Positions 25,217 to 41,518 of a DNA stretch of 64,000 bases are shown piece by piece. A model generated the notes under the pieces. It saw only the letters and a program-made list of their open reading frames with translations. It was not told the origin of the DNA and made no database searches. The position numbers and the translations under genes were made by a program. Positions within the stretch are counted from its first letter, which is position 1, and every line of letters starts with the position of its first letter. Origin of the DNA: Actinomadura meyerae (GTDB taxonomy: Bacteria > Actinomycetota > Actinomycetes > Streptosporangiales > Streptosporangiaceae); contig NZ_FZOR01000024.1 of the NCBI RefSeq assembly GCF_900188445.1, positions 62,001 through 126,000 on the forward strand, read 5' to 3'.

Positions 25217-25825
25217 CTATTGAGCTTGGGTGTCCTTGTTGCCGGGGGCTAGTAGGCGGTCCATCAGGACGTGTAGGTGGTGGCGGAACTCGGCCACGGT
25301 TTCCGGGTCGTCGGAGCGGCGCATGCCCATCTTGGGCCCTAGGACGCCTGAGCCCAGGAAGCCGTGGACGCACCAGACCATCGTGCCCAGCAGGTAGTAC
25401 GGGTTGACGTCCGGGGGAACCGCGTCGCGGATCTTGCGGGCTGCCAAGTGCAGGAGGGGGCGGGCGTAGCGGTCCTCCAGTTCCGTGATGTCGGCGGCGT
25501 CGTCGATCCAGCGGTGCGCCCACAGGGAACGGTTCGGGTGCGAGACGTGGAAGTCCAGGTACGCGTCGACGATCTGATGGACGGCGGTCCGGCCCGGTTC
25601 CGCCCGCGCCACGACCGCCTCGAGCATCGCCCGCTCCGACTCGAACGCCTGGTCCATCACCTCCAGGTAGAGCGCGCGCTTGTCGCCGACCGCCTCCACG
25701 ATCGCCGCGGGCTCGGTGCCCATGGCGTCCGCGATGAGGCGCATCGACGTGCCGTCATAGCCGAGTTCGCTGAACAGGCGGGTCGCCACATCGAGGACCC
25801 GCTGCCGGTGGATGGCGTTCGCCAT
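25217..25825 (-). CDS. TetR/AcrR family transcriptional regulator
   Basis: A 202-residue regulator from ATG 25825. The DNA-binding region is VLDVATRLFSELGYDGTSMRLIADAMGTEPAAIVEAVGDKRALYLEVM (residues about 9-58). The C-terminal half is a helical ligand-binding domain with YLDFHVSHPNRSLWAHRWIDDA. It faces a DUF6230/DUF6114 pair across about 145 bp of comparatively AT-rich promoter DNA, so it may control those genes or itself. An ATG-less upstream extension was not used. Confidence 0.9.
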   Translation of the reverse strand: MANAIHRQRVLDVATRLFSELGYDGTSMRLIADAMGTEPAAIVEAVGDKRALYLEVMDQAFESERAMLEAVVARAEPGRTAVHQIVDAYLDFHVSHPNRSLWAHRWIDDAADITELEDRYARPLLHLAARKIRDAVPPDVNPYYLLGTMVWCVHGFLGSGVLGPKMGMRRSDDPETVAEFRHHLHVLMDRLLAPGNKDTQAQ

Positions 25826-25968
25826 CCCGTCACCGTATGCAAGTTCGGGGGCGCGTTCTGCAAAGGGCGCCACAAGTCGTGATAAAGCGCACGTCTTTCC
25901 ACTTTGATTACTCTGAGTTGTTCTCTGATTGCTCGTTGTTGTACCTTCGGCGCGGGAGGCGGTGCCGG

Positions 25969-26538
25969 ATGGGCAATGTCAGGTGGCGCCGGTTCGTGCT
26001 GATGCTGGTTCCCTCGCTGGGTGCGCTGGGCGTGCTGGGGGTGGGGATGGCGCAGGGGACGGTGCCGGTGTCGTTCGCGCTGTCGGGGCGAAGCATGCAG
26101 GTCTCCGCGGAACGGCTGTCCGGGCAGGGGTTCGGGCTGTATCCCGCCGTGGTGCGGACGGCGGACGGTGAGCGGCACCAGGTGCTGTCGCTGACCATGC
26201 GGTCGGCCGCCGTCTACGGGCTGTGCCAGTCGTCGGTCGTGGACACTCCGCTCGGGCGCTACGTCGTGCGGCTCAGTGCTGGAGATTCCGCGCGGCCGGC
26301 GCAAGTGAAGGGCCTGACGATCTCGGCGCGGAGCATCGACGCCGATGTCGACTTCGGGTCTCTGGTGCTCAACAAGGACGCGGGGACGCTGGGCGGGCGG
26401 GCCGGTGACTACGGTGTCGGGGCGCAGGGGTTCACGGTGGAGCACGTGAAGGTCGACTCGTGGATGGTGGCCGGCGGGACGTTCCAGGTGACGGGGCTGA
26501 AGGTCGCCATCGGGCGGGACGTCCCGGCATGCTTCTGA
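25969..26538 (+). CDS. DUF6230 family secreted/membrane protein
   Basis: A 189-residue protein starting at ATG after GGGAGGCGG. An N-terminal signal/anchor (FVLMLVPSLGALGVLGVGMAQG) precedes a beta-rich domain with the family features VPVSFALSGRSMQVSAERLSGQGFGLYP and two internal cysteines. DUF6230 and DUF6114 genes form conserved neighbours in streptomycetes and relatives, sometimes annotated cholesterol esterase, without proof. The downstream DUF6114 gene overlaps its 3' end by 10 bases, so they are translationally coupled. The role is unknown, probably in the envelope. Confidence 0.85.
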   Translation: MGNVRWRRFVLMLVPSLGALGVLGVGMAQGTVPVSFALSGRSMQVSAERLSGQGFGLYPAVVRTADGERHQVLSLTMRSAAVYGLCQSSVVDTPLGRYVVRLSAGDSARPAQVKGLTISARSIDADVDFGSLVLNKDAGTLGGRAGDYGVGAQGFTVEHVKVDSWMVAGGTFQVTGLKVAIGRDVPACF

Positions 26539-26870
26539 CGCGGTGGCGGAGGGCGCGGCCGTTCGGGGCGAGTTGCCTGGTCGCGGCGGCCGGGCTGGAG
26601 ATCCTGCTGGTGCCGGTGGCGGGCGTGGGACTGGTGGTGAACGGCGGCGCGGGCGGGTACGGGGGCTTCCTCGTGGGGGTGTTCCTGATCGCGATGGGCG
26701 CGGGGCTGTGCTGGGGCGGTCCGCGCGACGTGATCGCCGTGCTGGTGGTGATGGCCGCGCTCGTCGCGTTCGTGCTGTCGAACCTGGGCGGGCTGCTGCT
26801 CGGGTCGCTGATGGCGATCGTCGGCGCTGCCTGGGGGTTCGCCTGGACGCCGCCGGTCATTCGAGCATGA
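26529..26870 (+). CDS. DUF6114 family membrane protein
   Basis: A 113-residue polytopic membrane protein with about four hydrophobic helices (for example LVAAAGLEILLVPVAGVGLVV, VGVFLIAMGAGLCWG, VIAVLVVMAALVAFVLSNLGGLLLGSLMAIVGAAWGF). It starts inside the DUF6230 gene and is read in the same direction, the usual DUF6230-DUF6114 pair. Its last 14 bases overlap the end of the convergent oleB-like gene. Function unknown. Confidence 0.85.
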   Translation: MLLTRWRRARPFGASCLVAAAGLEILLVPVAGVGLVVNGGAGGYGGFLVGVFLIAMGAGLCWGGPRDVIAVLVVMAALVAFVLSNLGGLLLGSLMAIVGAAWGFAWTPPVIRA

Positions 26871-27762
26871 AGCGGCGCAGCGCGATCAGCAGGTCGTCGC
26901 CGGCGTCCTCCACGACGAGATGGCCCGCGTGCGGATACAGGCGGACGCGGGCGCCCGGCAGGCGGGTCCGCCACTCGCGCAGGAACGCGGGGTCGAAGAC
27001 GGGGTCGTGGCGCCCCCAGGCGATCAGTGCCGGCAGGTCGGCGAACCGGTCCAGGGAGTCGCCGATCCCGCATAGCAGCGACCAGGACGGGTCACCGGGC
27101 TTCAGCGGTATGTCGTGCACGAACCGCTGGATCGCGAGGCGTCCGCCCTGCTGGTCGGACGGTGCGAGGTAGGCCGCGCGGACGGCGCGCGGGAGCGGTC
27201 TCCGGACGCCGAAGGGCGGGACGGTCGCCAGCCTGACGAACGCGTTGTGCCGGAGGAAGAGGGCACCTCCGAGGCCGCCGCGCAGTACTCCTAACGGGAT
27301 GCGGAGCGCTGGGCGGACCCTGGTGCCGTGCGGGTTGGGGAAGGCGGCCGTGTTCAGGACGACGAGGCGGGACACCCGCCCCGGATGGCGGGCCGCCCAG
27401 CCCATGCCGATCGGCCCGCCCCAGTCGTGCATCACCAGCGTCCAGCCGGTGGCGGGGGCGCCCTGGTCGGCGATGAGGTGGGTGGTGAGGGCGTCGAGGT
27501 CGTCGATGCGCGCGGCGAGGGTGTGGGCGTAGCGGTCGCCGTCGGGCTTGTCGGACAGGCCCATGCCGATGTGGTCGGGCGCGATGCACCGGAACCGGTC
27601 GCGTAAGGCCAGGACCGGGCGGCGCCACATGTAGCTCCAGGTGGGGTTGCCGTGGACGAACAGCACCGGTGCCCCCTCCCCCACGTCCACGTAGTGCTGG
27701 TCGAGGCCTCCGGGGTGGGTGAACCAGTGCGAGTCGAACCGGTAGCCGGGGAAGAAGCTCAC
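26857..27762 (-). CDS. oleB: OleB-type alpha/beta hydrolase (beta-lactone decarboxylase)
   Basis: A 301-residue alpha/beta hydrolase close to haloalkane dehalogenases. The nucleophile is an Asp, D113 in MHDWGGPIG, not the usual Ser; N39 in VHGNPTWSYMWR and W114 give the halide-type pocket, with acid D253 (WGRHDPVF) and base H281 (PHAGH). In Ole systems this enzyme removes CO2 from the cis-beta-lactone to give a cis-olefin. Its GTG overlaps the oleD stop by 4 nt, the last of the five-gene operon. Stand-alone dehalogenases look similar; the ole context decides the call. No signal peptide. Confidence 0.82.
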   Translation of the reverse strand: MSFFPGYRFDSHWFTHPGGLDQHYVDVGEGAPVLFVHGNPTWSYMWRRPVLALRDRFRCIAPDHIGMGLSDKPDGDRYAHTLAARIDDLDALTTHLIADQGAPATGWTLVMHDWGGPIGMGWAARHPGRVSRLVVLNTAAFPNPHGTRVRPALRIPLGVLRGGLGGALFLRHNAFVRLATVPPFGVRRPLPRAVRAAYLAPSDQQGGRLAIQRFVHDIPLKPGDPSWSLLCGIGDSLDRFADLPALIAWGRHDPVFDPAFLREWRTRLPGARVRLYPHAGHLVVEDAGDDLLIALRRFMLE

Positions 27763-28757
27763 CTGACTGCTCCCAGGGGATGCTCGGCCAGGTGATCGGC
27801 GAGGCGCGCCAATCCCTGCGCGGTGCTGACGGACGGGGTGTAGCCGAGGTCGCGGCGGGCCGCGGAGATGTCGAACCAGTGCGCCGTGGACGCCTGCCCG
27901 ACCAGGAAGCGGGTCAGCGGCGGTTCGGCGCGGACGGCGGGCAGCGCGCAGAGCAGTTCCAGCGCCGTGGCGGCCAGCATCGCGGCGGCCACCGGCACGC
28001 GGCGGGTCACGGGCGGGAGTCCGGCGGCCTCCAGCAGCCCGTTGATCCATCGCTCGAAGGGGGCCGGTTCGCCCTGGGTGATGAAGTAGGCGCGGCCGTT
28101 GACCGGTGAGTCGGGGGCGAGCCGGTCGAGAGCGAGCACGTGCGCGTCGGCGGCGTTGTCGATGTGGACGGTGTCGATTCTCTTGTCGCCTGCTCCTATC
28201 AGGCGCAGGCGGGAGCGTGCGGCGGCGAGGCCGGGGAGGAAGTGCGGGTCGCCCGGGCCCCAGATGAGGTGCGGGCGCAGCGCGGCGGCGGGGATCCCCC
28301 GGCCCGCGGCGCCCAGGACGAGTCCCTCGGCGGCGGCCTTGGTGCGGGGATAATGCGCCGGGAAGCGGCGGGCGTAGGGCAGCGACTCGGCCGCGCCTTC
28401 GAGGTCGCGCCCGTCGTGCACCACGCTGGGCGAGGACGTGTAGACCAGGCGGGCGCCCACGCGCGCGCACGCCGCCAGGACGTGCCGGGTCCCGTCCACG
28501 TTGATCTGCTCGTACTCGCGGCGCCGCCCGCCCACCCCGGCCTTGGCGGCGCAGTGGACGATCGCGTCGCACCAGTCGGCGGCGGCCACGACCGCCTCCC
28601 GGTCGCGGATGTCGGCCAGGTGCTGGACGACGCCGAGTTCGTCCAGCTCCCGCGAGCGGCGGCGCTGCAGCGCGTGGACGGTGTCGCCGCGTGCCGCGAG
28701 CCGCCGGCAGACCGCCGCGCCGAGGAACCCTCCGCCGCCGGTGACCAGGACCTTCAT
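27759..28757 (-). CDS. oleD: OleD-type NAD(P)H-dependent ketoreductase, extended SDR
   Basis: A 332-residue extended short-chain dehydrogenase. The Rossmann motif is GGGGFLG (residues 7-13); catalysis uses Y136 and K140 in HYPRTKAAAEG, with the preceding TSSPSVVHDG strand holding the Ser. OleD reduces the beta-keto acid made by OleA to the beta-hydroxy acid used by OleC. It overlaps oleC by 4 nt upstream and oleB downstream. A steroid 3-beta-HSD-like sequence is also compatible, but position between oleC and oleB supports OleD. Confidence 0.84.
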   Translation of the reverse strand: MKVLVTGGGGFLGAAVCRRLAARGDTVHALQRRRSRELDELGVVQHLADIRDREAVVAAADWCDAIVHCAAKAGVGGRRREYEQINVDGTRHVLAACARVGARLVYTSSPSVVHDGRDLEGAAESLPYARRFPAHYPRTKAAAEGLVLGAAGRGIPAAALRPHLIWGPGDPHFLPGLAAARSRLRLIGAGDKRIDTVHIDNAADAHVLALDRLAPDSPVNGRAYFITQGEPAPFERWINGLLEAAGLPPVTRRVPVAAAMLAATALELLCALPAVRAEPPLTRFLVGQASTAHWFDISAARRDLGYTPSVSTAQGLARLADHLAEHPLGAVR

Positions 28758-30403
28758 CGGCCGCTCCCCTCCAGCCTGCGGGCGGCCCAGCGGGCCAGCT
28801 CATGCCGGCGGATCTTGCTGTGGTGGCGGGCGTCCATGGGGAGGTCGCGGCGCAGCAGGACGTCGCGGATCCCGGCGTCCGGCGCCCGCTCCCCCGCCGC
28901 GTCCAGTACCGCCTCGATCAGGCCGGGGCGTTCCCGGCGGCCGAGTCCGGGCACGGGTTCGACGACCAGCACCGGGCGCTGCGCCCCGGCGGCCCCGACC
29001 CCGACCAGCGCGGCCCGCCGCAGCCCCGGGACGTCGGCGAAGAGCGGTTCGACCTGCTCGGTGCACAGGTCGCCGCGGGCGGTCCGGACCCGTTCGGACT
29101 TGCGGCCCGCGAACCACAGCCGGCCCTGCTCGTCGATATGGCCCAGGTCGCCCGTGCGGTGCCAGTCGCCCCCGCTGGGGATGCGCGCAAGGGCGGTCGC
29201 GGCGGGATCGTCCAGGTAGGGGTCGGCGACCGTGGGGGCCGACACGGCGATCTCGCCGAGGGCGCCCGGCGGCACGGGCAGGCACTCGCTCCAGCGGCGG
29301 ATCACACCGTCGCTGACCGGGATGACGCGCACCCGGACGCCGGGCAGCGGCATCCCCAGGCAGGTCCCGGCCCCGGCGGCGGTGGCCGCGTCGGTGCCGG
29401 CGTGCTCGCGGCTCTCGATCGCCGCGACCGGCAGGCACTCGGTCGCCCCGTACACCGACAGCAGCCGCGCCCGGTCGCGGATCACCGCGCGCATCCGCTC
29501 GCGGGTGCCGGCGGGCAGCGGCGCGCCCGCGGCCAGCACGTGCCGGAGCGGCTCCAGGACGATGCCGCGGTCCAGGCAGTGGCGGGCCAGCCGGTCCAGC
29601 ACCGCGGGCGGCGCGAACATCGCGGTCACCCCGTGGCGCAGGACGGCGGTGCTGAGCGCCGCCGGGTCGGCGCGGCCCGGATGCCGCGGATCGGTGTCCG
29701 GGACGAGCGCGGCCGCGCCGAACGCGGTCGCGGCCAGGGCGAACGGCGCGAACGCCGACAGCATCACCGAGCCGGGCGACAGGACGTCCAGCGCCGCGAG
29801 CGCGTCGAGCTGCGCGGCGAGCTGCCGGTGCCGCAGCGGCACCCCCTTGGGCGGCCCGGTCGAGCCGGAGGTGAAGCCGATCAGCGCGACGTCGTCCAGC
29901 CGCGGCTCCGGCCACTCCCGCGGGTCACCGGACGCGGCCTCGCGCAGGGCGTCCATGCGGGCTCCCCACGACAGCCACCGGGGGCCGACGGTCACGACGA
30001 TGCGTGCGCTCCTGGCCCAGCCCAGCAGCAGCCGCGCGGCCTGGGCGCGCGGTATCGCGATGTACGCCTCCGGCCGGGCCCGCCGCAGGCACCGGCGGAT
30101 CTCGCCGAACGGCAGGCCCGGGTCCACCAGGACCGGGACGGCCCGCAGGCGGGCCAGGGCCAGCACGGCCGCCCAGAGCTGCGGCCCCGGCGGCACCATC
30201 ACCGCCGTGCGGGTGCCCTCGCGCACCCCGGCGCGGGCCAGCGCCGCCGCGGTCTCGGTGACCAGGTCCGACAGCTGCGCGAACGTCGTCGTCTCGCCGC
30301 CGGGGCAGCGGCAGGCGACCGCGTCCGGCCGCCGGTGGCGCCACCAGCCCGCGCGCAGGTACAGCGGGCTGACGGCCGGGGACCGCTCCTGGATCACGGT
30401 CAC
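28754..30403 (-). CDS. oleC: OleC-type AMP-forming beta-lactone synthetase
   Basis: A 549-residue ANL-superfamily enzyme. The adenylate-forming motif GFTSGSTGPPKG is at residues 176-187, the A5-type segment LLSVYGATECLP near 330, and the conserved GDWHRTGDLGHIDEQGRLWFAGRKSERV near 430. The usual C-terminal catalytic Lys region ends MDARHHSKIRRHELARW. OleC activates the beta-hydroxy acid with ATP and cyclises it to a cis-beta-lactone. It starts at GTG in a 4-nt overlap with oleA. A plain fatty-acyl-AMP ligase is the alternative; the ole neighbours favour OleC. Confidence 0.85.
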   Translation of the reverse strand: MTVIQERSPAVSPLYLRAGWWRHRRPDAVACRCPGGETTTFAQLSDLVTETAAALARAGVREGTRTAVMVPPGPQLWAAVLALARLRAVPVLVDPGLPFGEIRRCLRRARPEAYIAIPRAQAARLLLGWARSARIVVTVGPRWLSWGARMDALREAASGDPREWPEPRLDDVALIGFTSGSTGPPKGVPLRHRQLAAQLDALAALDVLSPGSVMLSAFAPFALAATAFGAAALVPDTDPRHPGRADPAALSTAVLRHGVTAMFAPPAVLDRLARHCLDRGIVLEPLRHVLAAGAPLPAGTRERMRAVIRDRARLLSVYGATECLPVAAIESREHAGTDAATAAGAGTCLGMPLPGVRVRVIPVSDGVIRRWSECLPVPPGALGEIAVSAPTVADPYLDDPAATALARIPSGGDWHRTGDLGHIDEQGRLWFAGRKSERVRTARGDLCTEQVEPLFADVPGLRRAALVGVGAAGAQRPVLVVEPVPGLGRRERPGLIEAVLDAAGERAPDAGIRDVLLRRDLPMDARHHSKIRRHELARWAARRLEGSGR

Positions 30404-31428
30404 CACCTCGCCAGGACGATTCCGGCGCTGACCCCGCTGGCCAGGCCCACGAGGGCGACGAGGTCCCCGCGCCGCACGCGGCCGGACTCCACCGCCATGG
30501 CCAGCTGGACGGGCAGGGTGGCGGAGACCATGTTGCCGTGCTGGACGATGGAGACCACGACCTTGCCCGGCGGGATCCCGGCGTGGTCGCAGAACTTCCA
30601 CAGCATGGGCAGCGACGCCTGGTGGACGCAGACGGCCGCGCAGTCGTCCCAGGTGAGGCCGAGGTCGGTGAGCGGCTTGCGGAACAGGGCCGGGTCGATG
30701 CTCTCGATGCCCCGCAGGAGGGTGCGGGCGTCGACCATGAGCGGGCCGTAGTGCGGCGGCGGCGTCGCCGGGTCGCTGGAGGCGTCCAGCACGCGGACCA
30801 CGGCGCCCTCCCACGCGGCGGAGTGGGCGGCGGAGCGGTGCGCCAGCACGCCGGGTTCGGACCCCGCCTCCAGCAGCAGGGCGGCGCCGACGTCGCTGAC
30901 GGTGTAGCCGGCCGCGACGGCGTAAAACTCCTCGGCGCTCCCGACGCGCCACGGGGTGATGGCGCTGGGCAGTTCGCCGCAGCAGACCAGCACGCGCCGG
31001 TACCGGCCGCCGGTGATGAGCGCGTCGGCCAGCTCGATGGCCGTCAGCACGCCGTTGCAGGCGTTGCGCACGTCGAAGACGGGGCAGCGGGCGCCGAGCG
31101 CCGCCGCGACGAGGTGCGCGGCGGCGGGCTCCACGACGTCGGCCGACACCCCCGCGTAGATCAGCAGGTCCACGTCGGCGGGGGCGACTCCGGCGCCGTC
31201 CAGCAGCTTGCGGCAGGCCCGGACGGCCAGGTCGCACGGCCCGTCCTCCGGGGCGGCGACATGCCTGCGCCTCACCCCGCTGGCCTTGAGGATCAGGCCG
31301 CGCGGGACGTCAAGACCCGGGTTGCGCTCGGCGAGCCGGTCCTCCAGCTCGGCCGTGGCCAGTGTGGTCTCCGGCAGGTACGCGGCCACGGCCGCCAGGC
31401 GAGTCCATGGCGCGCCCACGCCGGTCAC
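30400..31428 (-). CDS. oleA: OleA-type head-to-head acyl condensing enzyme (KAS III fold)
   Basis: A 342-residue thiolase-fold ketosynthase III. The catalytic triad is C124 (VRNACNGVLTA), H269 (VCVHQASLP) and N299 (VQHGNMVS). E100 lies in a VVEPA segment, about where OleA enzymes carry the Glu that deprotonates the second acyl chain, unlike FabH. OleA joins two acyl thioesters by non-decarboxylative Claisen condensation to a 2-alkyl-3-keto acid. It overlaps the PKS stop by 4 nt, suggesting that one donor may be the PKS product. Start GTG. Confidence 0.84.
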   Translation of the reverse strand: MTGVGAPWTRLAAVAAYLPETTLATAELEDRLAERNPGLDVPRGLILKASGVRRRHVAAPEDGPCDLAVRACRKLLDGAGVAPADVDLLIYAGVSADVVEPAAAHLVAAALGARCPVFDVRNACNGVLTAIELADALITGGRYRRVLVCCGELPSAITPWRVGSAEEFYAVAAGYTVSDVGAALLLEAGSEPGVLAHRSAAHSAAWEGAVVRVLDASSDPATPPPHYGPLMVDARTLLRGIESIDPALFRKPLTDLGLTWDDCAAVCVHQASLPMLWKFCDHAGIPPGKVVVSIVQHGNMVSATLPVQLAMAVESGRVRRGDLVALVGLASGVSAGIVLARW

Positions 31429-34400
31429 TTCGTCCCGCCCGTCGGGACCGCCGCGAGCGAGGCCGTTTCCGGGGTCTCGTCCAGGTCGGGCTCGGGCTGC
31501 CTTGGGCGGGGTGGCGGTGGTGCCGCCGTTTCGGTGGCGGAGAGGCCCAGGCGGACCAGGACGATCTGGGCGATGTCGGCGATGGTTCCGCCGCTGCGGA
31601 GGAGCTCCAGGGGCGGGATGTCGATCCCGTACCGGGTCCGTACGGAGGCCATCAGCTCCCCGCCCATCAGGGAGTCCATGCCGTACTCGTCGAGCCGGCG
31701 GTCGACCGCGATCTGCTCGGCCGGCAGGAGCAGAACGTCCGAGAGCACCTGCCTGATCTCCGCGACGAGGAAGGTGAGGGCCTCCTCGCGGTCCATGGCG
31801 GCGAGCTCCTCCAGGACCCGCGTCCGGTCGGTGCCCTCCTCGTCCAGGCCGGCGGGCAGGAGCGAGGCCGTCATCGGGCGCCGCAGGCCGGGCATGACCT
31901 GGCTGAGCCGTCCCCAGTCGCAGCGGGCGACCATGGCCACGGCGGCCTGCTCGGCCAGCATGTCCTCGATGGCGGCGAGCGCCTCCGCCGGGCGGGTCGC
32001 CTCGCCGCCGAACACCGCCGCCAGCGTCCCGCCCTGGGCATCGCGCGCCAGCACGCCGGTCTCACCGAGCGCGCCCAGCGCCACCGTGAGCGCGGTCCTG
32101 CCGCGCCGGCGGCGGTGGCGGGCAAGCGCCTCCAGGTACAGGTTGGCCGCCGCGTACGCCGACTGGCCGATGTTGCCGAGCGCGGAGATGGAGGAGTACA
32201 TGACGAACATGTCGAGGTCGCGGTCGCCGGCGAGGTCGTCCAGCACCAGCGCCCCGGCGATCTTGGGGTGCAGGACGGCGCGGATCCGGTCGTCGGGCAG
32301 TTCGGCGAGCGGCGCGTCGTCCAGGTGCATCGCCGCGTGGACGACCCCGCGCAGCGGGTGGCCTCGGGCGTCCATGCCGTGCACGATCCGCTCCATCGCG
32401 GCGCGGTCGGCGGCGTCCGCGGCGTGGGCGCGCGCGTCGGCGCCGAGGGCGCGCAGGTCGGCGAGCAGGCCGGGCGCCTCGGGCGACTCGGCGCCGCGGC
32501 GGCCGACCAGGGCCAGGTGGCGGGCGCCGCGGCGGGCCAGCCAGCGGGCGGTGGCGGCGCCGAACCCGCTCAGCCCGCCGGTGACCAGGTAGGTGCCCTC
32601 CGGGTCCAGGGCCGGCACCGTCCGCCGGGGCCGCACCCCGAACGGCTCGTCGTGCTCGGCGAACGAGATGACGATCTTCCCGAGGTGGCGGGACGAGGCC
32701 ATCAGCGCGAACGCCTCGTCCACCCGGGCGGCGGGGAACACCGTGTGCGGCAGCGCGGTGACGCCGCCGCTCCGCAGCAGCGGCCGGCAGGCGGCCATCT
32801 CCCGGGCCGCGCGTTCGGGGTCCTTCCACTGCAGGGTGCCCACGTCCACCCCGAACATCGAGATGTTGTCGCCGAACGGGCGCAGCAGCAGCGGCCTGTT
32901 CTCGAAGATGTCGCGCTTGCCGAGCTCGATGAACCGGCCGCCGTGCCGCAGCACCTCCAGGCCGCGGGTGATCGCCTCCCCGGCGAGGGAGTTGAGCACG
33001 ACGTCGACGCCGCGCCCGTCCGTCAGCTCCATGACCCGGTCGGCGAAGCGCAGGCTCCGCGAGTCCAGCACGTGCTCGGCGCCCAGGGCGCGCAGCAGGT
33101 CGCGCTTGGCGGTCGAACCGGCCGTGGCGATCACGCGGGCCCCGCAGGCGCGGGCGACCTGGAGCGCGGCCAGGCCGACGCCGCCGGCGCCGCCGTGCAC
33201 CAGGACGGTCTCGCCGGTCCGCACGCGCGCGCAGTGGATGAGCGAGTGGGTCGCCGTCACGAACGCCATCGGCAGGGTGGCCCCCTGGGTGAAGGTCAGC
33301 CCGTCGGGGATCGGCATGGCCATCCAGGCGGGGACGACGGTGTGGCCGCCGATGCCGACGGGGCCGGCGGTCAGCACCCGGTCGCCGGGCTCGACGCCGG
33401 TGACGCCGTCGCCGACCGCGGCGACGACCCCGGCGCACTCCAGCCCGAGCTCGTGCCATCCGTGCACCGCCTCGACGGCCTCCACGGGCAGCAGGCCGCT
33501 CGCGCGCATCACGTCGCGGTAGTTGAGCCCGGCCGCGCGGACCTCGATCGCGATCTCGCCGGCGGCGGGCTCCGGCCTGCGGACCTGCCGCCAGTCGAGG
33601 GTGAACGTCCGTCCCGGGTCGTGGACCGCGAGCTCGAAGCCGTCCCCGGGAGCGGTGGGCGGGGGTGGGGACGGGATGGTCGCCGCCGGCGCTTCTCGCA
33701 GGCGCGGGACGAATCGGCCGCCGGGGGTCAGGACGATCTCGTCCTCGTCATCCGGCGCGAGCAGTTCCGCCGCCAGGCGATCGGCGTCCCGGACGGGGTC
33801 GCCGGTGGGGGTCAGGCAGACGCGCCGGACCCGCAGGTTCGGGTGCTCGTTGCCGAGGGAGCGTGCGGCGCCCCAGAGGGCGGCGTCCTGCGGATGCGTC
33901 TCGGCTCGCGGCTCGCCCGTGTCCGGGAGGGCGCCGCTGGGGCGGGTGGCGAGCCACACCGAGACGTCCAGGTCGTGGGGCAGTTGCTCGCAGGCCAGCA
34001 CGATGGCGCGGAGCGCCGCTATCCGCCGGGTGATCCGCTCCACCTCCGCGGCCGGGTCGGGAGGGGATCCGGTGGTCTCTTGTGCGCCGTCCAGGACGAC
34101 GCAGAAGGCAGCCCTTCGTGCGCCTGCCGGCACTCTCAGCGCCCAGTCTCCGGGGTCGGTGCCGAGGCCGGACCGGGCGACCAGGGCGCCGCGGTCCCGC
34201 AGAACGTCCGCGAGCGCGCCGGGCACGCCGGTGCCGTCCTCGGCGGCGATGATCCAGGCGTCCCCCTCCTCGGCCCGCGGCGGCCGGTCCTGCGCCACCG
34301 GCCGCGGGGCCGCCGATTGCGGGGCCGCCGCCAGCAGGACGGAGAAGTCTCCGGCATCGGACTCTCCTCCGTCGTCTGCTGCGGCGATGGCGGTGAAGCC

Positions 34401-37400
34401 CGCGTCGACCAGCAGCCCCGACCACTGCTCACGCGGCAGCAGCGGCGAGTCGGGGCGCACGTCGCGGTCGGTGAAGCGCCAGAAGTCGGTCAGGAGGCCG
34501 AAGACCGGCAGCAGCGCGCCCAGCCGGTGCGGTTCGGCGGCCAGCAGGAGCCCGCCCGGTGCCAGGAGGGAGCGCGCGTGGTCGAGTGCGGCGGTGACGT
34601 CCGCCGCCAGGTGCAGCACGTTCACCGCGACCACGAGGTCGAACGCGCCCTCGGCCACGCCCTGCTCGGCGGGCGGGCGGTCGATGTCCAGGACGGCGCA
34701 TTCGACCAGCTCGGACGCGGCATGATCGGGCGCGCTGAACCTTTGGCGCAGCCGGGTGACGACCGACTCGTCCGCGTCGGTGGCCGTGTAGCGGGTGCGG
34801 TCTGCGGGCAGCACCGGCAGCAGCGCGCCGGTGGTCCCGCCGGTTCCGGCGCCCACCTCCAGGACGCGCAGCGGCCGGTCGGCGGGCCACCGCCGGACGA
34901 TCCGCTCCGCCACCGCCCGCACGGCGCGGTTGGCGGCGGCGCACAGCGGCCCCGCGCGGTGGAACTGCTCCAGCAGGTCGGCGCCGCCCCCGGAGAGGAG
35001 GTCGGACGCGGTCTCGCGACCGGCGAGCAGCTCGGGCAGGTGCGTGCCGGCGAGGACCGTCAGCGCGGCGTGCGCGGCGAAGGCGTTCCCGCGCCACACC
35101 AGCTTCGCGTGCAGGGCGTCCAGGTCGGCCGGCGGGGCCGCCCAGCGGAGCTGCCGGGGGCCCAGCCCGCCGAGCAGGCCGTGCCGTTCCAGCAGCGGCA
35201 GCGCGGCTTCGAGGACCCGCCGGTGCTCCGGCGCGGGAAAGGACCGGAGGAGTTCGCGCGGGTCGAACGGCCGGGCGCGGCCCCCGGCGTCCACCGCCCG
35301 CAGCGCGTGGGCGACCGCGTGCGCGAACGCCTCCTCCGCCTGCGCGGCGAACCCGGGGTAGTCGAGTTCGCGCCACGCCTCCAGGGCCCGGCCGGCGGTT
35401 CCGGCCGCCTCGTCGAGGAGCAGGCGCGGCTCCGCCACGGGGGCCTCGCCGGTCGCCGCGCTCCGGTCGCCGGGACGGGGCGCGGCGCGCAGCACCGTCT
35501 CGTACCGGGTCACCCGGGTCGCGATGCCCCGGACGGCGCGCAGCCGGCAGCCGAGGATCTCGGCGCTGACATTGCCGTCGCGGTCGGTGATGGTGATGTC
35601 CCAGCAGACCTCGTCCTCGTACCGCGAACGTTCCCGGACGTGCAGGAGGCCCTGCGGGGAAGGGCGCCTCCACAGCCGCAGCGACGCGATCGCCGCGGGC
35701 ATGTAGTGCCTGCCCCCGAGCATCTCGTCCACCAGCCACACCACTCCGGCCTGGAGCGCGCTGTCCAGGACGACGGGATGCGCCCCGTAGGAGCCGTCCT
35801 CCTGCGCGTCGCACGAATAGGAGCCGAGGATCTCCTTGCCTGCTCGCCACAGGCCGGTCAGAACGCGGAACTGCGGCCCCCACTCCATGTGGCCTCTGGC
35901 GGCGCGCGCGTAGAAGTCGGCGACGTCGACCGGTTCGCTGATACGGGCGCGCAGGTCCGCGACGTCCACCGGCGGCGGGGCCGGGCGCAGCAGGCGGCGG
36001 ACGCGTCCCCGGCAGTTCTCCCGCGGCTGCCTGACGCGGTCCTCGGCGCCCGCCACGACGACCACGCCGGTCTCCGGGTGCAGCGTGGTGCTCGCACGCG
36101 TCGGCTCGGTGCCGGTCGCCGCCGACAGCACCAGTGCCCGGCCGATGTCGACCCGGTCGACCTCGACCGCGCCGGACGCCTCCGGCAGCCCCAGCCGTCC
36201 CGCCGCGGCCATCATCTCCAGGTAGCCCGTCGCGGGCATGACGGGGGCGCCGCCCGCCTTGTGGTCCAGCAGCCAGCCGATCCGCCCCGGGTCGAGTTCC
36301 GCCGCCCACGCGGGGTGCGGCATCGGCAGCCGCTCGCCCAGCAGCGGATGCTGGACCGCCGGGTCGCCGAGCCGGGCGATCCAGGTGGACGGGCCGCCGA
36401 TCCAGTACCGCTCGCGCTGCCACGGGTAGGCGGGCAGCGGCCGGACGCGGCCGGGGCGCGGGAAGTGGCGGTCCCAGTCCAGGCGGGCACCCGACGCGAC
36501 CAGGTGCGCGACCGCCGCCCGCATGCCGGACGGGCCGGGCTCCCCGCGCCGCAGCGTCGCGGTGACGGCCGTCCGGTGGCCCGTCCTGCCGGCGACGCGG
36601 CGCAGGTAGGACCGCAGCACCGGATGCGGCCCGACCTCCACCAGCACGTCGCAGCCCTCGTCCGCCACACGCTCGACGGCGGCGGCGAACCGGACGGGTT
36701 CGCGGACGTTCCGCCACCAGTACGCGGCGGTCAGGCCGGACCCGTCCATCAGGCCGCCGGTCACCGTCGACACCAGCGGGATCCGGGTGCGGCCGGGCCG
36801 CAGCCCGGAGAGGGCCTCCAGCAGGTCGTCTCGGACGGGGTCCATGGCCGAGCTGTGGAAGGGGTACTCCAGGTCGAGCATCCGGAAGAAGACACCGCCG
36901 GCGGCGAGTTCCTCGCCGAGCGCGGCCAGCGCGTCCTCCGGACCGGCGAGGGTGACGTCGCGGTCGGTGTTGACCGCCGCGACCTCCACCCCGGGACGGC
37001 CGTCCAGCAGGCGCCGGGCGGCGTCCTCGGACAGGCCGGCGGCCGCCATCCGCCCCCGGCCGCGCGCCCGCGCCTGCGCCGCGCTCCGCTCGGCGATCAC
37101 CTGGGCCGCCTGCGCGGGCGACAGCGCCCCCGACGCGTAGGCGGCGGCGACCTCGCCGACGCTGTGCCCCAGCACGCAGCCCGGCCGCACGCCCGCCGCC
37201 TTCAGCATCTCCGTGAGCCCGGCCTGCACGGCGAACAGCAGGGGCTGCGCGACCTCCGTCGCCGCCAGGCACCACCGCTCGGCGGGGACGGCCAGCTCCT
37301 CCAGGACCGACCAGCCCAGCCGCGGCGCCAGCTCGGCGTCCAGCGCCTCGACCGCCTCGCGGAAGACCGGCTCGTCGAGAAGGTCGGCGGCCATTCCCGC

Positions 37401-39110
37401 CCACTGCGCGCCGTTCCCCGAGAACACCAGCGCGACGCGGCCGTGCTCCACCGCTTCGGCGAACGCCGCCTCCCCGCCGGCCGCCTCCCCGTCCGAGGCC
37501 GCGCCGTCCTCGGCTTCCGACGCTTCGGTTCCGCCGGTTTCGTCGCCGTCCAGCAGGCGGGTCAGCGCGTGCGCGGCGGAGGCGGGAGAGTCCGCGACGA
37601 CCGCCGCGCGGTGCGGGTGCATGCCGCGGCGCCGGCACGAGGTGTAGGCGAGGTCGTAGAAGTCGTGATCGGGGGCCGACGCGAGCGCCCCGGCGGACCG
37701 GCGGACCGCCTCGCGCAGCGCGGTCGGCGTCCGCGCCGACACCACCAGCGGCAGCGCCCGCACCGGAGCCCCGCCGTGCTCGTCGCCCTCCTCGGGCGGC
37801 GGCGGGACGGTCAGCGCGACATGGACGTTGGCGCCCCCGAACCCGAAGGAGTTCACCCCGGCGACCGGGCGGGCGGCGGCGCCGTCCAGGGGCACCGGCC
37901 GCGTCGCCACGCGCAGCCCCAGCCCGTCGAAGTCGATGGCCGGGTTCAGCGTGCCGGCGTGCAGGGTCGGCGGCACCACCCGCTTCCGCAGCACCAGCAT
38001 GGCCTTGAACAGGCCCGGCATGCCGGACGCCGGCTCCAGATGCCCCATGTTCGACTTCACCGACCCGATCGGCAGCGGGCCGCCGGAGCGGGCCGCGCCG
38101 AGGGCCCGGCCGAGGGACAGGCACTCGGCCGGGTCCCCCGCCGGCGTCCCGGTGCCGTGCGCCTCGACGTACACGACGTCGTCGGGCGAGACGCCGGCGT
38201 CGGCGTACACCTGCCGCAGCAGCTGCTCCTGCGCGTCCGGGCTGGGCAGCGACAGCCCGAACGTGCGGCCGTCGTTGTTGGTGCCCGCCCCCACGATCAC
38301 CCCGTGGACGCGGTCGCCGTCGGCGAGCGCGTCGTCCAGCCGCTTCAGCACGACCAGGCCCCCGCCCTCGGCCCGGACGAACCCGTCGGCGTCCGCGGAG
38401 AACGCCCGGCACCGGCCGGTCGGCGACAGCATCGACGCCTGGCTGAACCCCACGAACGAGCCGGGGCTCAGCAGGAGGTGCATCCCGCCGGCCAGCACCA
38501 CCCGGCTCCGGCCCTCGACGAGCGTCCGCCAGCCGCGCTCCACCGCCAGCAGCGACGACGAGCACGCGGTGTCGATGCTCATGCTGGGGCCGCGCAGGTC
38601 GAACACCTGCGACAGCCGGTTCGACGCGATCGACAGCGTCGACCCCGACATCGTGTACGGGCCGATCCCGCACGGCTCCAGCATCTGCATCACCCCGTAG
38701 GCGGGGTCGGAGATGCCGATGAACACCCCCGTGTCGGACCCGGCCAGGGACGCCGGGTCGATGCCGGCGTCGTCCAGCGCCTCCACCGCCGTCTCCAGCA
38801 GCAGCCGCTGCTGCGGGTCCATCGCCGCGGCCTCCTTGGGCGAGATGCCGAAGAAGGCCGCGTCGAAGCCGCCCGGGTCCTCGGCCAGGAAGCCCCCGGC
38901 GCGGGTGTAGCTGCGGCTCGCCCGCGGCATCCGCTCGTCGACGAACCGGTCGGCGTCGAACCGCTCCGGCGGCACCTGCCCGACCAGGTCGTCGCCGCGC
39001 TCCAGCGCGGCCCACAGGCCGTCCAGGCCGGTGATGCCGCCCGGCAGCCGGCACCCCACCCCGACGATCGCGACCGCGCGGCCGCCGATCCCGCCAGGCC
39101 GTTCGCCCAT
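31425..39110 (-). CDS. Highly reducing iterative-type type I polyketide synthase
   Basis: About 2561 residues in one module: KS (11-435; C183, H318, H357, with DTACSSS, HGTGT and KSNMGH motifs), AT (about 560-860; S650 in GHSVGE, malonyl-type FH at 751-752), DH (about 915-1195; H950 in HxxxGxxxxP, D1116 in DSALQ), C-methyltransferase (about 1410-1530; LEVGAGTGG), structural spacer, ER (about 1825-2150; GGAGGVG), KR (about 2170-2350; S2306, Y2319, LDD so B-type) and ACP (S2480 in YGMDSL). There is no thioesterase. All active sites look intact. The ATG at 39110 has GAGGGG six bases before it; a GTG at 39170 would add 20 residues. It overlaps oleA, so the chain probably leaves by OleA. Confidence 0.93.
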   Translation of the reverse strand: MGERPGGIGGRAVAIVGVGCRLPGGITGLDGLWAALERGDDLVGQVPPERFDADRFVDERMPRASRSYTRAGGFLAEDPGGFDAAFFGISPKEAAAMDPQQRLLLETAVEALDDAGIDPASLAGSDTGVFIGISDPAYGVMQMLEPCGIGPYTMSGSTLSIASNRLSQVFDLRGPSMSIDTACSSSLLAVERGWRTLVEGRSRVVLAGGMHLLLSPGSFVGFSQASMLSPTGRCRAFSADADGFVRAEGGGLVVLKRLDDALADGDRVHGVIVGAGTNNDGRTFGLSLPSPDAQEQLLRQVYADAGVSPDDVVYVEAHGTGTPAGDPAECLSLGRALGAARSGGPLPIGSVKSNMGHLEPASGMPGLFKAMLVLRKRVVPPTLHAGTLNPAIDFDGLGLRVATRPVPLDGAAARPVAGVNSFGFGGANVHVALTVPPPPEEGDEHGGAPVRALPLVVSARTPTALREAVRRSAGALASAPDHDFYDLAYTSCRRRGMHPHRAAVVADSPASAAHALTRLLDGDETGGTEASEAEDGAASDGEAAGGEAAFAEAVEHGRVALVFSGNGAQWAGMAADLLDEPVFREAVEALDAELAPRLGWSVLEELAVPAERWCLAATEVAQPLLFAVQAGLTEMLKAAGVRPGCVLGHSVGEVAAAYASGALSPAQAAQVIAERSAAQARARGRGRMAAAGLSEDAARRLLDGRPGVEVAAVNTDRDVTLAGPEDALAALGEELAAGGVFFRMLDLEYPFHSSAMDPVRDDLLEALSGLRPGRTRIPLVSTVTGGLMDGSGLTAAYWWRNVREPVRFAAAVERVADEGCDVLVEVGPHPVLRSYLRRVAGRTGHRTAVTATLRRGEPGPSGMRAAVAHLVASGARLDWDRHFPRPGRVRPLPAYPWQRERYWIGGPSTWIARLGDPAVQHPLLGERLPMPHPAWAAELDPGRIGWLLDHKAGGAPVMPATGYLEMMAAAGRLGLPEASGAVEVDRVDIGRALVLSAATGTEPTRASTTLHPETGVVVVAGAEDRVRQPRENCRGRVRRLLRPAPPPVDVADLRARISEPVDVADFYARAARGHMEWGPQFRVLTGLWRAGKEILGSYSCDAQEDGSYGAHPVVLDSALQAGVVWLVDEMLGGRHYMPAAIASLRLWRRPSPQGLLHVRERSRYEDEVCWDITITDRDGNVSAEILGCRLRAVRGIATRVTRYETVLRAAPRPGDRSAATGEAPVAEPRLLLDEAAGTAGRALEAWRELDYPGFAAQAEEAFAHAVAHALRAVDAGGRARPFDPRELLRSFPAPEHRRVLEAALPLLERHGLLGGLGPRQLRWAAPPADLDALHAKLVWRGNAFAAHAALTVLAGTHLPELLAGRETASDLLSGGGADLLEQFHRAGPLCAAANRAVRAVAERIVRRWPADRPLRVLEVGAGTGGTTGALLPVLPADRTRYTATDADESVVTRLRQRFSAPDHAASELVECAVLDIDRPPAEQGVAEGAFDLVVAVNVLHLAADVTAALDHARSLLAPGGLLLAAEPHRLGALLPVFGLLTDFWRFTDRDVRPDSPLLPREQWSGLLVDAGFTAIAAADDGGESDAGDFSVLLAAAPQSAAPRPVAQDRPPRAEEGDAWIIAAEDGTGVPGALADVLRDRGALVARSGLGTDPGDWALRVPAGARRAAFCVVLDGAQETTGSPPDPAAEVERITRRIAALRAIVLACEQLPHDLDVSVWLATRPSGALPDTGEPRAETHPQDAALWGAARSLGNEHPNLRVRRVCLTPTGDPVRDADRLAAELLAPDDEDEIVLTPGGRFVPRLREAPAATIPSPPPPTAPGDGFELAVHDPGRTFTLDWRQVRRPEPAAGEIAIEVRAAGLNYRDVMRASGLLPVEAVEAVHGWHELGLECAGVVAAVGDGVTGVEPGDRVLTAGPVGIGGHTVVPAWMAMPIPDGLTFTQGATLPMAFVTATHSLIHCARVRTGETVLVHGGAGGVGLAALQVARACGARVIATAGSTAKRDLLRALGAEHVLDSRSLRFADRVMELTDGRGVDVVLNSLAGEAITRGLEVLRHGGRFIELGKRDIFENRPLLLRPFGDNISMFGVDVGTLQWKDPERAAREMAACRPLLRSGGVTALPHTVFPAARVDEAFALMASSRHLGKIVISFAEHDEPFGVRPRRTVPALDPEGTYLVTGGLSGFGAATARWLARRGARHLALVGRRGAESPEAPGLLADLRALGADARAHAADAADRAAMERIVHGMDARGHPLRGVVHAAMHLDDAPLAELPDDRIRAVLHPKIAGALVLDDLAGDRDLDMFVMYSSISALGNIGQSAYAAANLYLEALARHRRRRGRTALTVALGALGETGVLARDAQGGTLAAVFGGEATRPAEALAAIEDMLAEQAAVAMVARCDWGRLSQVMPGLRRPMTASLLPAGLDEEGTDRTRVLEELAAMDREEALTFLVAEIRQVLSDVLLLPAEQIAVDRRLDEYGMDSLMGGELMASVRTRYGIDIPPLELLRSGGTIADIAQIVLVRLGLSATETAAPPPPRPRQPEPDLDETPETASLAAVPTGGTK

Positions 39111-39326
39111 GCGCGTCCCCTCGCCCGGCGGCGCGCCGGACCGGCGCACCGGCCGCGCACCCGCCGTCACATTCGGTAGTCAGATGGCCACTCAAGGCTG
39201 CGACGGGTGTGCCGAGTCGGCAACAGACGCGGCGGCGCATAAGCCCTACCCGCGGGGTAGCGGGGGCGTCACCGCCGGGCGCGCGTGTCAGGTGCCGGGC
39301 TCGGGCGCGGAACTCGGGTGCGGGGG

Positions 39327-40943
39327 CTAGTCGTAGGACGCCAGGGCGCGGGCGTGCAGGCCGAGGACGTGCGCGAACAGGGCGGGGGCCTGCGCGCCGG
39401 CGGCGTCGGGGAGGACGTCGGGGCTGAGCGTCCAGTCGGTGCCGACCCAGGAGTCGGCGATGGCGTCCGGGCTGGACGGGAGGTTGTTGCACGCCTGCCG
39501 GAGCCGGACGGCGCGCACGGACTCGGCGGCCGGGGTGTCGGTCTCCACCAGCAGCACCGGGACGCCGGCCGCCGGGCCGTCCTCCACCAGGCGCAGCAGC
39601 CCGTGCGCGCCGTCGCCGTCGAGCGCGGCGCCGGCGTCGAGGATGACCGCCAGCCGGACGGGCGGGCCGCCGCCGGGCAGGTCCTCGCCGCCGATGCGGC
39701 GCAGGTCGACCAGGTCGAGCAGGCGCCGGACGCGTTCGGCCGCGCCGGTGCCGACGGCCACGCCGCCGCCGAGCAGCCGGGAGGTCACCGCCGGGTCGAA
39801 GCCCTGCAGCCAGCCCGCGCCCGACAGGCCCGGCCCGTCGATGACGTCGAGCCCGACGAGGCCGGGCGGTGCCGCGGCGAGGAACCGGGTCGCCAGCGAC
39901 CAGGCGTAGGCGGCCGAGTCGCCCGGCATGGTGCCCTGGGAGACCCACACGGCGCGGCGCCACGGCAGCCGCAGCACCAGCGGGATGCGCAGGTCCGGCA
40001 GCTCGGCCGTGGACAGCCGGCCGAGCAGCACCCCGCCGGCCAGGTCGGTGCGGGGCCGCCAGGTCAGCCAGGACGGCGCGTCGAACGGCGCGACCTCCGC
40101 CTCGACGTGCGGCTCCACCCGGGCCAGCTCGTCGCGGAGCTGGGCGGCGTCGGCGCGCAGCCGCTGGTCGGCGGTGGCCATCAGCTCGTCGAAGCGGCCG
40201 CGGGGCCGCCGCCCGGAGATCTCCTCGTTGCGGACGGTCAGCGCGTGCTCGGTGGCGGCGCGGAACGCGGCCAGCGAGCGGCTCGCGTCCTCCCAGACGA
40301 GCCAGCACCGTTCGAGGTAGTCGACCTCCGAATCGGGCGGCGGAGGCGGCGGCGGTGCGGGTGGCGGCACGGGTGGCGGCATCGGTGGCGGTACGGCCGC
40401 GGGCGGCGGCTGCGGCGCCCGCGGGGGTGGTGGCTGTGCGGGCGGTGGCTGGGTGCCCGGGTCGTCCACCTCGACGCCGTGCGCGGCGACCAGCTCGGCC
40501 AGGCCGCCGGCGTAGCCCTGGCCCACGGCGCGCACCTTCCACCCGCCGGCGCGGCGGTAGACCTCCAGGCCGATGATCGCCTGCTCGGGGCCGAGGCCGG
40601 CGGCGGTGAACGCGGCGGCCACCGCGCCGCCGGCGGTCAGGACCACCCGCGGCGGCTCCGGGCCGAACGAGGTGCCCCCGGCGAGGCTGACCGCGATGAG
40701 CACCGCGGCGACCTCGGCGGGGACCGCGTCGAGGTCGAGGTCGACGTGCTGGCCGCCGGTGTCCGACCAGCGGACGCCCGCGGCCTGCGGGGCGTTGAAG
40801 AACACCAGGTCGGCGTCGGAGCGGACGCGCAGGTCGGGACCGACGAGCAGAGCGCTGACGTCGACGGGCACGGCGCTGGAGACCGTCGCGGTCACCCGCC
40901 GGGCGGTCAGTGCCGCGTTGGCGCCGCGGGCGAGTTCGGTCAT
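39327..40943 (-). CDS. TerD-domain protein with proline-rich linker and extra C-terminal domain
   Basis: A 538-residue protein. Residues 1-157 are a TerD/CABP domain (HVDLDLDAVPAEVAAVLIAVSL and the closing QAIIGLEVYRRAGGWKVRAVGQGY). Residues 162-204 are nearly all proline. The remaining part from about 210 has a helical segment and an alpha/beta domain (LRIPLVLRLPWRRAVWVS, VRLAVILDAGAAL) that looks like a degenerate FtsK/P-loop-type fold without an obvious Walker A. It starts one codon after the smaller TerD gene and is likely co-transcribed with it. TerD proteins bind calcium and are linked to tellurite or envelope stress; the fused part is unassigned. Confidence 0.78.
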   Translation of the reverse strand: MTELARGANAALTARRVTATVSSAVPVDVSALLVGPDLRVRSDADLVFFNAPQAAGVRWSDTGGQHVDLDLDAVPAEVAAVLIAVSLAGGTSFGPEPPRVVLTAGGAVAAAFTAAGLGPEQAIIGLEVYRRAGGWKVRAVGQGYAGGLAELVAAHGVEVDDPGTQPPPAQPPPPRAPQPPPAAVPPPMPPPVPPPAPPPPPPPDSEVDYLERCWLVWEDASRSLAAFRAATEHALTVRNEEISGRRPRGRFDELMATADQRLRADAAQLRDELARVEPHVEAEVAPFDAPSWLTWRPRTDLAGGVLLGRLSTAELPDLRIPLVLRLPWRRAVWVSQGTMPGDSAAYAWSLATRFLAAAPPGLVGLDVIDGPGLSGAGWLQGFDPAVTSRLLGGGVAVGTGAAERVRRLLDLVDLRRIGGEDLPGGGPPVRLAVILDAGAALDGDGAHGLLRLVEDGPAAGVPVLLVETDTPAAESVRAVRLRQACNNLPSSPDAIADSWVGTDWTLSPDVLPDAAGAQAPALFAHVLGLHARALASYD

Positions 40944-40948
40944 CGGCG

Positions 40949-41518
40949 TCAGGCGTGGGCCGCGATCGCCGGGAGCATGTCCTGGAACGTGCGGCCGTGG
41001 CAGGGCTCGCCGATCGCGTTCATCTTCCAGGCGCCGCCGTGCCGGTAGATGCGGGCCATCACCATCGCGGTGTGGGCGCCGCCGCCGGTCAGCGTGTACC
41101 GGGCGAGCTCACCGCCGTCCATCTCGTTGACCAGCCGGCAGAACGCGTTCTCGACCTCGTTGAACGTCTGGCCGTTGAACGAGCTGACCGTGAACACCAG
41201 CGAGGTGACGTGCACCGGGAGGCGGTTCAGGTCGACGATGACCGACTCGTCGTCGCCGTCGCCCGCGCCGGTCAGGTTGTCGCCGGTATGCCGGACGGAG
41301 CCGTCGTCGCTGACGAGCTTGCCGAAGTACACGACGTCCGCGAGGCTCTGGTCGGCGAACAGGACGCAGGACGCGTCGAGGTCGATGTCCCGCTCGCGGG
41401 AACCGAAGAACCCCTTCTTCTTCACCGCGTCCCAGCCCAGGCCCATCCGGACCATGCTGAGCGCGCCGCCGGGCTTCTCCAGCGAGATCCGCTGGCCCTT
41501 CACCATCGACACCGTCAC
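40949..41518 (-). CDS. terD: TerD family protein
   Basis: A 189-residue TerD/CABP-type stress protein. The opening VKGQRISLEKPGG, the calcium-binding segment DLDASCVLFADQSLADVVYFGKL, the SDDGSVRHTGDNLTGAGDGDDESVIVDLN acidic loop and the closing IYRHGGAWKMNAIGEPCHGRTF are all family hallmarks. TerD proteins form membrane-associated scaffolds with calcium and are linked to metal or phage resistance. The GTG start lies divergently from the cobalamin-riboswitch operon, with about 135 bp between. It precedes the larger TerD-fusion gene by 5 bp. Confidence 0.95.
   Translation of the reverse strand: MTVSMVKGQRISLEKPGGALSMVRMGLGWDAVKKKGFFGSRERDIDLDASCVLFADQSLADVVYFGKLVSDDGSVRHTGDNLTGAGDGDDESVIVDLNRLPVHVTSLVFTVSSFNGQTFNEVENAFCRLVNEMDGGELARYTLTGGGAHTAMVMARIYRHGGAWKMNAIGEPCHGRTFQDMLPAIAAHA

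Follow-up and report, generated by a model that had tools for sequence, protein, structure and literature searches.

A C-methylating polyketide synthase in one operon with oleA, oleC, oleD and oleB in Actinomadura meyerae: a probable route to methyl-branched olefins

The DNA analysed here, called the window, is a stretch of 64,000 nucleotides from Actinomadura meyerae (contig NZ_FZOR01000024.1, positions 62,001 to 126,000), and on its minus strand, between 26857 and 39170, five genes follow one another in the order polyketide synthase (PKS), OleA, OleC, OleD and OleB. From the sequences compared we conclude that these genes probably form a dedicated hydrocarbon operon, in which the PKS would make a methyl-branched chain, OleA would couple this chain head-to-head to a second one, and the joined product would be converted to an internal olefin by OleD, OleC and OleB.

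The operon and its enzymes

A first-pass annotation of this DNA had described five minus-strand genes in this order with no gaps, and all five were found, with a 4-bp start/stop overlap at each of the four junctions (GTGA, GTGA, ATGA and GTGA). This suggests that the PKS and ole genes are translationally coupled, because every junction is an overlap of this kind. The annotation also spoke of a PKS fused into the ole operon, which is correct in that the PKS lies in the same operon but not in the sense of a fused protein, as the PKS is a separate, coupled gene. The end that it gave for the PKS, 39110, is indeed an in-frame ATG, from which the protein would have 2561 aa, but the gene call begins at a GTG at 39170 and gives 2581 aa. 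The features of the operon are listed below, the domain coordinates having been computed from Pfam residue ranges.

39171-39326, minus strand: intergenic stretch upstream of the PKS, presumed operon promoter region (sequence and gene ends)
31425-39170, minus strand: PKS, highly reducing, with C-methyltransferase (Pfam, motifs)
37806-39080, minus strand: PKS ketosynthase (KS) domain (Pfam)
36486-37427, minus strand: PKS acyltransferase (AT) domain (Pfam)
35529-36350, minus strand: PKS dehydratase (DH) domain (Pfam)
34545-34862, minus strand: PKS methyltransferase (cMT) core (Pfam)
32664-33626, minus strand: PKS enoylreductase (ER) domain (Pfam)
32067-32597, minus strand: PKS ketoreductase (KR) domain (Pfam)
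31563-31760, minus strand: PKS acyl carrier protein (ACP; PP-binding) (Pfam)
30400-31428, minus strand: OleA-like thiolase/ketoacyl-ACP synthase III (KAS III), probable PKS off-loader (Glu100, Cys124, His269, Asn299)
28754-30403, minus strand: OleC-like beta-lactone synthetase, AMP-binding (Pfam, NCBIfam, motifs)
27759-28757, minus strand: OleD-like 2-alkyl-3-oxoalkanoate reductase of the 3beta-hydroxysteroid dehydrogenase/short-chain dehydrogenase type, with YxxxK (Pfam, NCBIfam, motifs)
26857-27762, minus strand: OleB-like beta-lactone decarboxylase, a haloalkane dehalogenase-type alpha/beta hydrolase with an HDWGG motif (Pfam, NCBIfam, motifs)

By Pfam the domain order KS-AT-DH-cMT-ER-KR-ACP is contained in one protein, with a single PP-binding stretch, a PS-DH domain and no FabA domain, and no thioesterase was detected in the window PKS at E <= 0.001, as had been claimed. 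The best match among solved structures is mycocerosic acid synthase (MAS; 949 bits), and LovB is also matched (640 bits). When 21 full-length PKSs of the family were compared (rows under 2400 aa are omitted from this motif table), the KS Cys/His/His, AT Ser, DH His/Asp and ACP Ser motifs were present in all 21, the ER motif GGAGGVG in 20, the methyltransferase His in 20 and the methyltransferase Glu in 19. We take this His and Glu to have the catalytic roles of C-methyltransferases, and the HAFH-like AT motif presumably denotes malonyl under the AT rule. The mean pairwise identity of the family PKSs was 0.66 in the methyltransferase and 0.72 in the ER compared to 0.53 in the linker. The ratio of nonsynonymous to synonymous substitution rates (dN/dS), calculated for one pair, the window and its close relative G053, was 0.20 for the KS and 0.28 for the methyltransferase, and KS, AT, DH and KR spanned 0.20-0.23. 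The description of the enzyme as a highly reducing, C-methylating PKS is borne out by the full domain set and by methyltransferase and ER motifs that are largely conserved in relatives. We infer that its type I architecture would be used iteratively, as the operon encodes a single module and contains no further PKS gene; a multi-module assembly line was discarded on account of the single module. In G064 (L042, 2670-10458), whose cluster is complete in other respects, the PKS is broken into several frames, through either decay or assembly errors, and only its best pieces entered the comparison.

Glu100, Cys124 and His269 of the window OleA align with E117, C143 and H285 of Xanthomonas campestris OleA, which are named in PDB titles, and this OleA-type Glu is absent from the aligned FabH sequences of Burkholderia and Neisseria. 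Glu, Cys and His are present in 32/32 family OleAs, as is the NAC motif, and the Asn, which we assume to be catalytic, in 30/32. The AlphaFold model of the window OleA (predicted local distance difference test, pLDDT, 91.8) has X. campestris OleA as its best match (Z 40.6, root-mean-square deviation 2.4, 321 aligned), with about 25% identity over the structural alignment. FabH is tied with it at Z 40.2, and the priming ketosynthase of the R1128 pathway scores 38.6. Because of this tie the fold does not decide between OleA and FabH, and the identity of the protein therefore rests on the Glu and on gene context. The dN/dS of OleA against G053 was 0.18.

All four genes of the OleABCD pathway are thus together in the operon. 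The best NCBIfam model for OleC is the olefin beta-lactone synthetase NF045786 (510 bits) and that for OleD is the 2-alkyl-3-oxoalkanoate reductase NF042422 (377.5 bits), both matched over nearly the full length. OleB was assigned by fold family and context, its NCBIfam matches being haloalkane dehalogenase-type and other hydrolase models with none above cut-off. Its HDWGG, acid and His motifs, which we take to be the catalytic residues, are found in 25/25 aligned OleBs. On the whole, the claim of intact active-site motifs stands for the window genes, and the motifs are largely conserved in relatives. An OleB of the same name from X. campestris (XcOleB) has been placed as a putative subfamily III member of the haloalkane dehalogenase-like hydrolases (PMC10503415).

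Recurrence of the PKS-ole pairing

The counts that follow use one set of 341 family genomes in 68 genera, a second collection of loci that shares genomes with it being left out of them, with the window OleA type defined by E <= 1e-95 and a partner by a match within the same locus (up to 20 kb) on either strand. The window OleA type was found as 43 copies in 40 of the 341 genomes and in 8 of the 68 genera; a class-wide sample of 394 genomes had it in 7, and these belong to that family too. A PKS adjoins 28 of the 43 copies, a stand-alone FabF-like ketosynthase is present at 10, and 4 have neither. In the remaining one, G013, the PKS (86% identical over the part searched) is on another contig, and this copy was counted as PKS-linked. 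All four ole genes are nearby in 33 copies, 24 with a PKS, 8 with a FabF-like ketosynthase and 1 (G052) with neither. PKS-linked sets occur in all 8 genera that hold the window OleA type, and the five-gene order recurs across genera with protein identity of roughly 53-74%, for example as PKS-A-C-D-B in Microbispora rosea, Sphaerisporangium melleum, Planotetraspora thailandica, Nonomuraea maritima and Actinomadura rifamycini. The first-pass annotation had held that the link would be accidental if relatives kept the ole genes and routinely lacked the PKS, and had proposed the five-gene order as a check. Relatives do not routinely do so, as 24/33 complete sets carry a PKS, and the order is conserved. 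Because the same gene order recurs in other genera, the arrangement is not due to chance, and comparative genomics confirms the PKS-ole link as a conserved one.

The 10 loci with a FabF-like ketosynthase in the PKS slot (L118-L122, L124, L125, L129, L130 and L132) belong to one genus, g40, of the Nonomuraea group. Eight of them have oleC-D-B, and Cys and His motifs are present in the three ketosynthases that were inspected (L118-L120). In one locus, L118, Pfam gave nothing for three small frames in the gap between the ketosynthase and OleC. In Streptoalloteichus hindustanus (L080, 9-12034) an OleA of the same clade (57% identical) and an OleD come after large FabA, KR and ACP genes, which resemble a Pfa-type synthase. 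One OleA clade thus adjoins at least three kinds of chain maker, namely the window-type PKS, the FabF-like ketosynthase and Pfa-like genes. G048 has a P450-OleA-wax-ester-synthase set.

In 22 clusters the KS distances correlated with those of the AT of the same protein at r = 0.936 and with those of OleA at the same r = 0.936, and with those of OleC, OleD and OleB at 0.79, 0.85 and 0.83, respectively. Such co-variation of KS and OleA fits a direct hand-over from ACP to OleA. In the OleA tree PKS linkage is shared by all 23 rows surrounding the window (Shimodaira-Hasegawa-like approximate likelihood ratio test, SH-aLRT, 94), the PKS label needs 5 changes compared to a shuffled mean of 19, and G052 has the PKS-bearing A. 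rifamycini as its sister. In the KS tree ole linkage requires 3 changes, of which 2 are forced; the ole-linked PKSs fall into one large group, which includes the window and has G018 inside it, and two smaller groups. Since these groups are separate, the KS tree indicates more than one origin or rearrangement of the pairing.

Proposed pathway and alternatives

The pathway that we propose would begin with the PKS, which, judging from its intact domains, would iterate with malonyl-CoA, S-adenosylmethionine and NADPH to give a largely saturated, methyl-branched acyl-ACP. As the PKS has no thioesterase, the chain is proposed to pass from its ACP to OleA, where head-to-head coupling to another PKS chain, or to a fatty acyl-CoA/ACP, would give a 2-alkyl-3-keto acid. 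The reactions of OleD, OleC and OleB are established for the Ole families; here, likewise, OleD would reduce the ketone, OleC would close the beta-lactone and OleB would expel CO2. The predicted product is an internal olefin with one or more methyl-branched polyketide arms.

It is possible, though in our view unlikely, that the route is the same and that the beta-lactone is what matters, OleB being slow, a hydrolase or regulated, so that a methyl-branched polyketide beta-lactone is secreted. Actinobacterial oleACD clusters that lack oleB have beta-lactones as known or inferred products (PMC7064751), and the genome of the window has a second cluster with an OleA, a P450 and OleC-like and OleD-like genes. 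However, oleA, oleC and oleD without oleB were found in 0/43 loci of the window OleA type, the presumed catalytic motifs of OleB are invariant in the 25 aligned proteins, and its dN/dS of 0.12 against G053 is the lowest of the five operon genes. The intact motifs of OleB make an olefin more likely than a beta-lactone as the end product.

Several observations weigh against the olefin pathway. Shared vertical descent could by itself account for the correlation between KS and OleA. G052 has all of oleACDB but no close relative of the window PKS, searches of its genome with the DH-to-ER part and the methyltransferase region having given only weak matches, and apparently these enzymes can act on other chains. 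Conversely, in G018 the PKS was found with OleC and a partial match to OleD, but with no OleA at E <= 1e-40. Five of the 29 PKS-linked OleA copies have no complete ole set nearby: G038 is PKS-OleA-OleD, G240 has only PKS-OleA within about 27 kb, G207 has A-PKS-MMPL at its second copy, and G214 and G225 are A-PKS, both near contig ends. Three relatives show altered methyltransferase positions, and the ER, with a dN/dS of 0.47 in the pair with G053, is the least constrained catalytic domain. No OleA-specific NCBIfam model is among the matches listed for the window OleA. OleC (510 bits, cut-off 900) and OleD (377.5 bits, cut-off 580) are both under the curated olefin equivalog cut-offs, and OleC is above the cut-off of a general model, NF006754 (fatty acid CoA ligase family). 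We call the genes Ole-like because OleC and OleD are homologous to the curated equivalogs but fall outside them.

The cases of G052 and G018 would agree with an association by chance or co-regulation only, in which OleABCD would work on common fatty acyl chains and the PKS would serve to make some other, unrelated lipid, and OleA was indeed earlier described as using acyl-CoA, as stated in PMC6463001. We consider this improbable, and more so than the beta-lactone alternative, as the adjacency is conserved in 8 genera, KS and OleA co-vary, the operon holds no other release enzyme, and the PKS slot is replaced elsewhere by a FabF-like ketosynthase or, in Streptoalloteichus, by Pfa-like genes. 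That the cluster is inherited without any chain maker was rejected, because only G052 fits among the 33 complete ole sets.

KAS III enzymes prime some aromatic polyketide pathways, and the tie of the FabH folds with OleA, together with the R1128 match, could be read to mean that the OleA-like protein primes the PKS in this manner and that OleCDB act on a different compound. This is very improbable, given the OleA-type Glu and NAC motif throughout the family and the presence of C, D and B in the same overlapping operon. Least probable of all is a pathway that ends at a ketone or beta-hydroxy acid, for which the variants G038 and G240, judged at the locus only, offer a model, but the window holds all four ole genes with their motifs intact.

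If the olefin pathway is correct, the operon would be a natural route that leads from a methyl-branching PKS directly to hydrocarbons, and OleA would release the PKS chain by coupling it to another; both points would matter to lipid biology and fuel chemistry. Methyl-branched polyketide olefins would then be a hydrocarbon class for which we found no described pathway, and the swapped chain makers and neighbours would be natural experiments on ACP-thiolase recognition.

Neighbouring genes, related loci and known systems

Next to the operon are the following genes, of which the two DUF genes, downstream of oleB and convergent with it, are absent from the first-pass annotation.

26529-26870, plus strand: DUF6114 protein; runs toward oleB, whose end it overlaps by 14 bp
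25969-26538, plus strand: DUF6230 protein, predicted N-terminal helix and beta-rich domain, a recurrent neighbour
25217-25873, minus strand: TetR-type regulator, possible cluster regulator

Among 25 loci compared, the TetR gene was seen only in two loci of G053. DUF6230, of which the 8.57 Mb genome of the window has only two copies, was found within the fetched flanks of 13/29 PKS-linked OleA copies, of G052 and of 3/23 other PKS loci, and in S. melleum and N. maritima the DUF6230-DUF6114 pair is downstream of oleB on the same strand. The pair was also seen at L057 (14939-16916) and L064 (14675-16184), so that it occurs beside PKS-ole clusters and beside related PKSs free of ole genes. The two are possibly envelope proteins and might, speculatively, place, move or export a lipid at the envelope, which would tie two domains of unknown function to polyketide lipids. 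The predicted DUF6230 model is middling (pLDDT 75.5); it gave no Foldseek match at E <= 0.001 and no VIA-align Z of 5 or more, and for want of a convincing structural match its function was not read from the fold. Two TerD-domain genes (39327-41518, minus strand) lie directly upstream of the PKS and are kept in G053.

A second OleA type, 43-49% identical to that of the window, is common in the genus: of 65 genomes, 60 have some OleA (E <= 1e-40), 8 the window type and 59 the second type. OleC-like and OleD-like genes were nearby in 13/13 loci of the second type that were inspected. In the genome of the window this locus is on contig C34 (L036, 8972-16143), where the second OleA (44%), OleC-like and OleD-like genes have a P450 match between them. 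No OleB match was found at L036 at E 1e-10; an alpha/beta hydrolase gene is about 0.9 kb further on. This is probably a beta-lactone-type cluster kept across the genus.

The methyltransferase region of the window PKS has matches in 102/341 family genomes at E <= 1e-20, many of the weaker ones in long frames typical of modular PKSs. We looked at 23 related PKS loci that do not adjoin OleA, a non-random set of 20 hand-picked from the better matches and 3 others. In the same locus as the PKS were an MMPL transporter gene in 6 (two of these loci also hold a wax-ester-synthase-like gene), a fatty acyl reductase in 4, DUF6230-DUF6114 in 3, and in one each a wax-ester synthase, FabF with a wax-ester synthase, and OleC with a partial OleD match. 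No partner gene was found in 7/23, one of which (L147) has a weak AMP-ligase match (27%). The C-methylating PKSs of L134, L135, L143, L146, L152, L156 and L157 lie beside a wax-ester synthase, MMPL or fatty acyl reductase gene, and such loci are candidate pathways to methyl-branched wax esters and alcohols. The PKSs of L133-L135, which with the window PKS were the ones checked by Pfam for a thioesterase, have the same domains as the window PKS and no thioesterase (E <= 1e-8).

One PKS family thus adjoins several kinds of lipid-handling gene, and for this reason the ole set looks like one among several off-loading modules for related PKSs. A wider proposal, which we put forward tentatively and hold at somewhat less than even, is that the release-domain-free, C-methylating iterative PKSs of the family are interchangeable chain makers, each paired with its own partner for off-loading or export. 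These partners would be Ole coupling, a wax-ester synthase together with MMPL, an acyl reductase, and DUF6230-DUF6114. The window would be the Ole version, its methyl-branched polyketide olefin being handled at the cell surface by DUF6230-DUF6114.

Synthases of the pfaABCDE type have tandem ACPs and FabA-type dehydratases. The window PKS has neither, and the system would work like Pfa-Ole without being a member of it. In Shewanella the Pfa (polyunsaturated fatty acid) synthase and oleABCD make a 31:9 polyunsaturated hydrocarbon (PMC6463001; PMC3098273), and Pfa synthase and OleA provide a precedent for ACP-to-OleA transfer (PMC6463001). The likeness is that an iterative synthase of PKS or fatty acid synthase kind would supply ACP-bound chains to OleA. 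Unlike Pfa-Ole, the window has a single-protein KS-AT-DH-cMT-ER-KR-ACP enzyme in an actinobacterial operon of five overlapping genes, and its product is predicted to be methyl-branched and reduced instead of polyunsaturated.

The oleABCD genes of X. campestris condense the fatty acids of the cell, and the gene region described in PMC7064751 has no PKS. The window has homologues of all four enzymes and presumably the same chemistry, but in the order A-C-D-B and with a PKS. The actinobacterial oleACD clusters, with examples in Streptomyces toxytricini, Nocardia brasiliensis and Actinoplanes atraurantiacus, include one described in detail as OleA, glycosyltransferase, OleC, P450 and OleD, with no PKS listed there (PMC7064751). 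The window shares the OleA, OleC and OleD types with these clusters, which are defined by the absence of oleB, whereas it alone has oleB, with intact motifs. MAS and related mycobacterial PKSs are lipid-making, as the window PKS presumably is, and the window enzyme adds a methyltransferase domain and likely off-loading by OleA. Fungal highly reducing PKSs such as LovB have the same domain order with a C-methyltransferase; the window enzyme is bacterial, closer to MAS by PDB score, and differs in release.

The first-pass annotation knew of no described system of this sort. Pfa-Ole of Shewanella is a precedent in kind, but a C-methylating highly reducing PKS with oleACDB was not found described in open-access full text, a search with most subscription papers and all cluster databases outside it. 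An iterative synthase that feeds Ole enzymes is therefore already known in principle, and what appears new here is its C-methylating PKS version.

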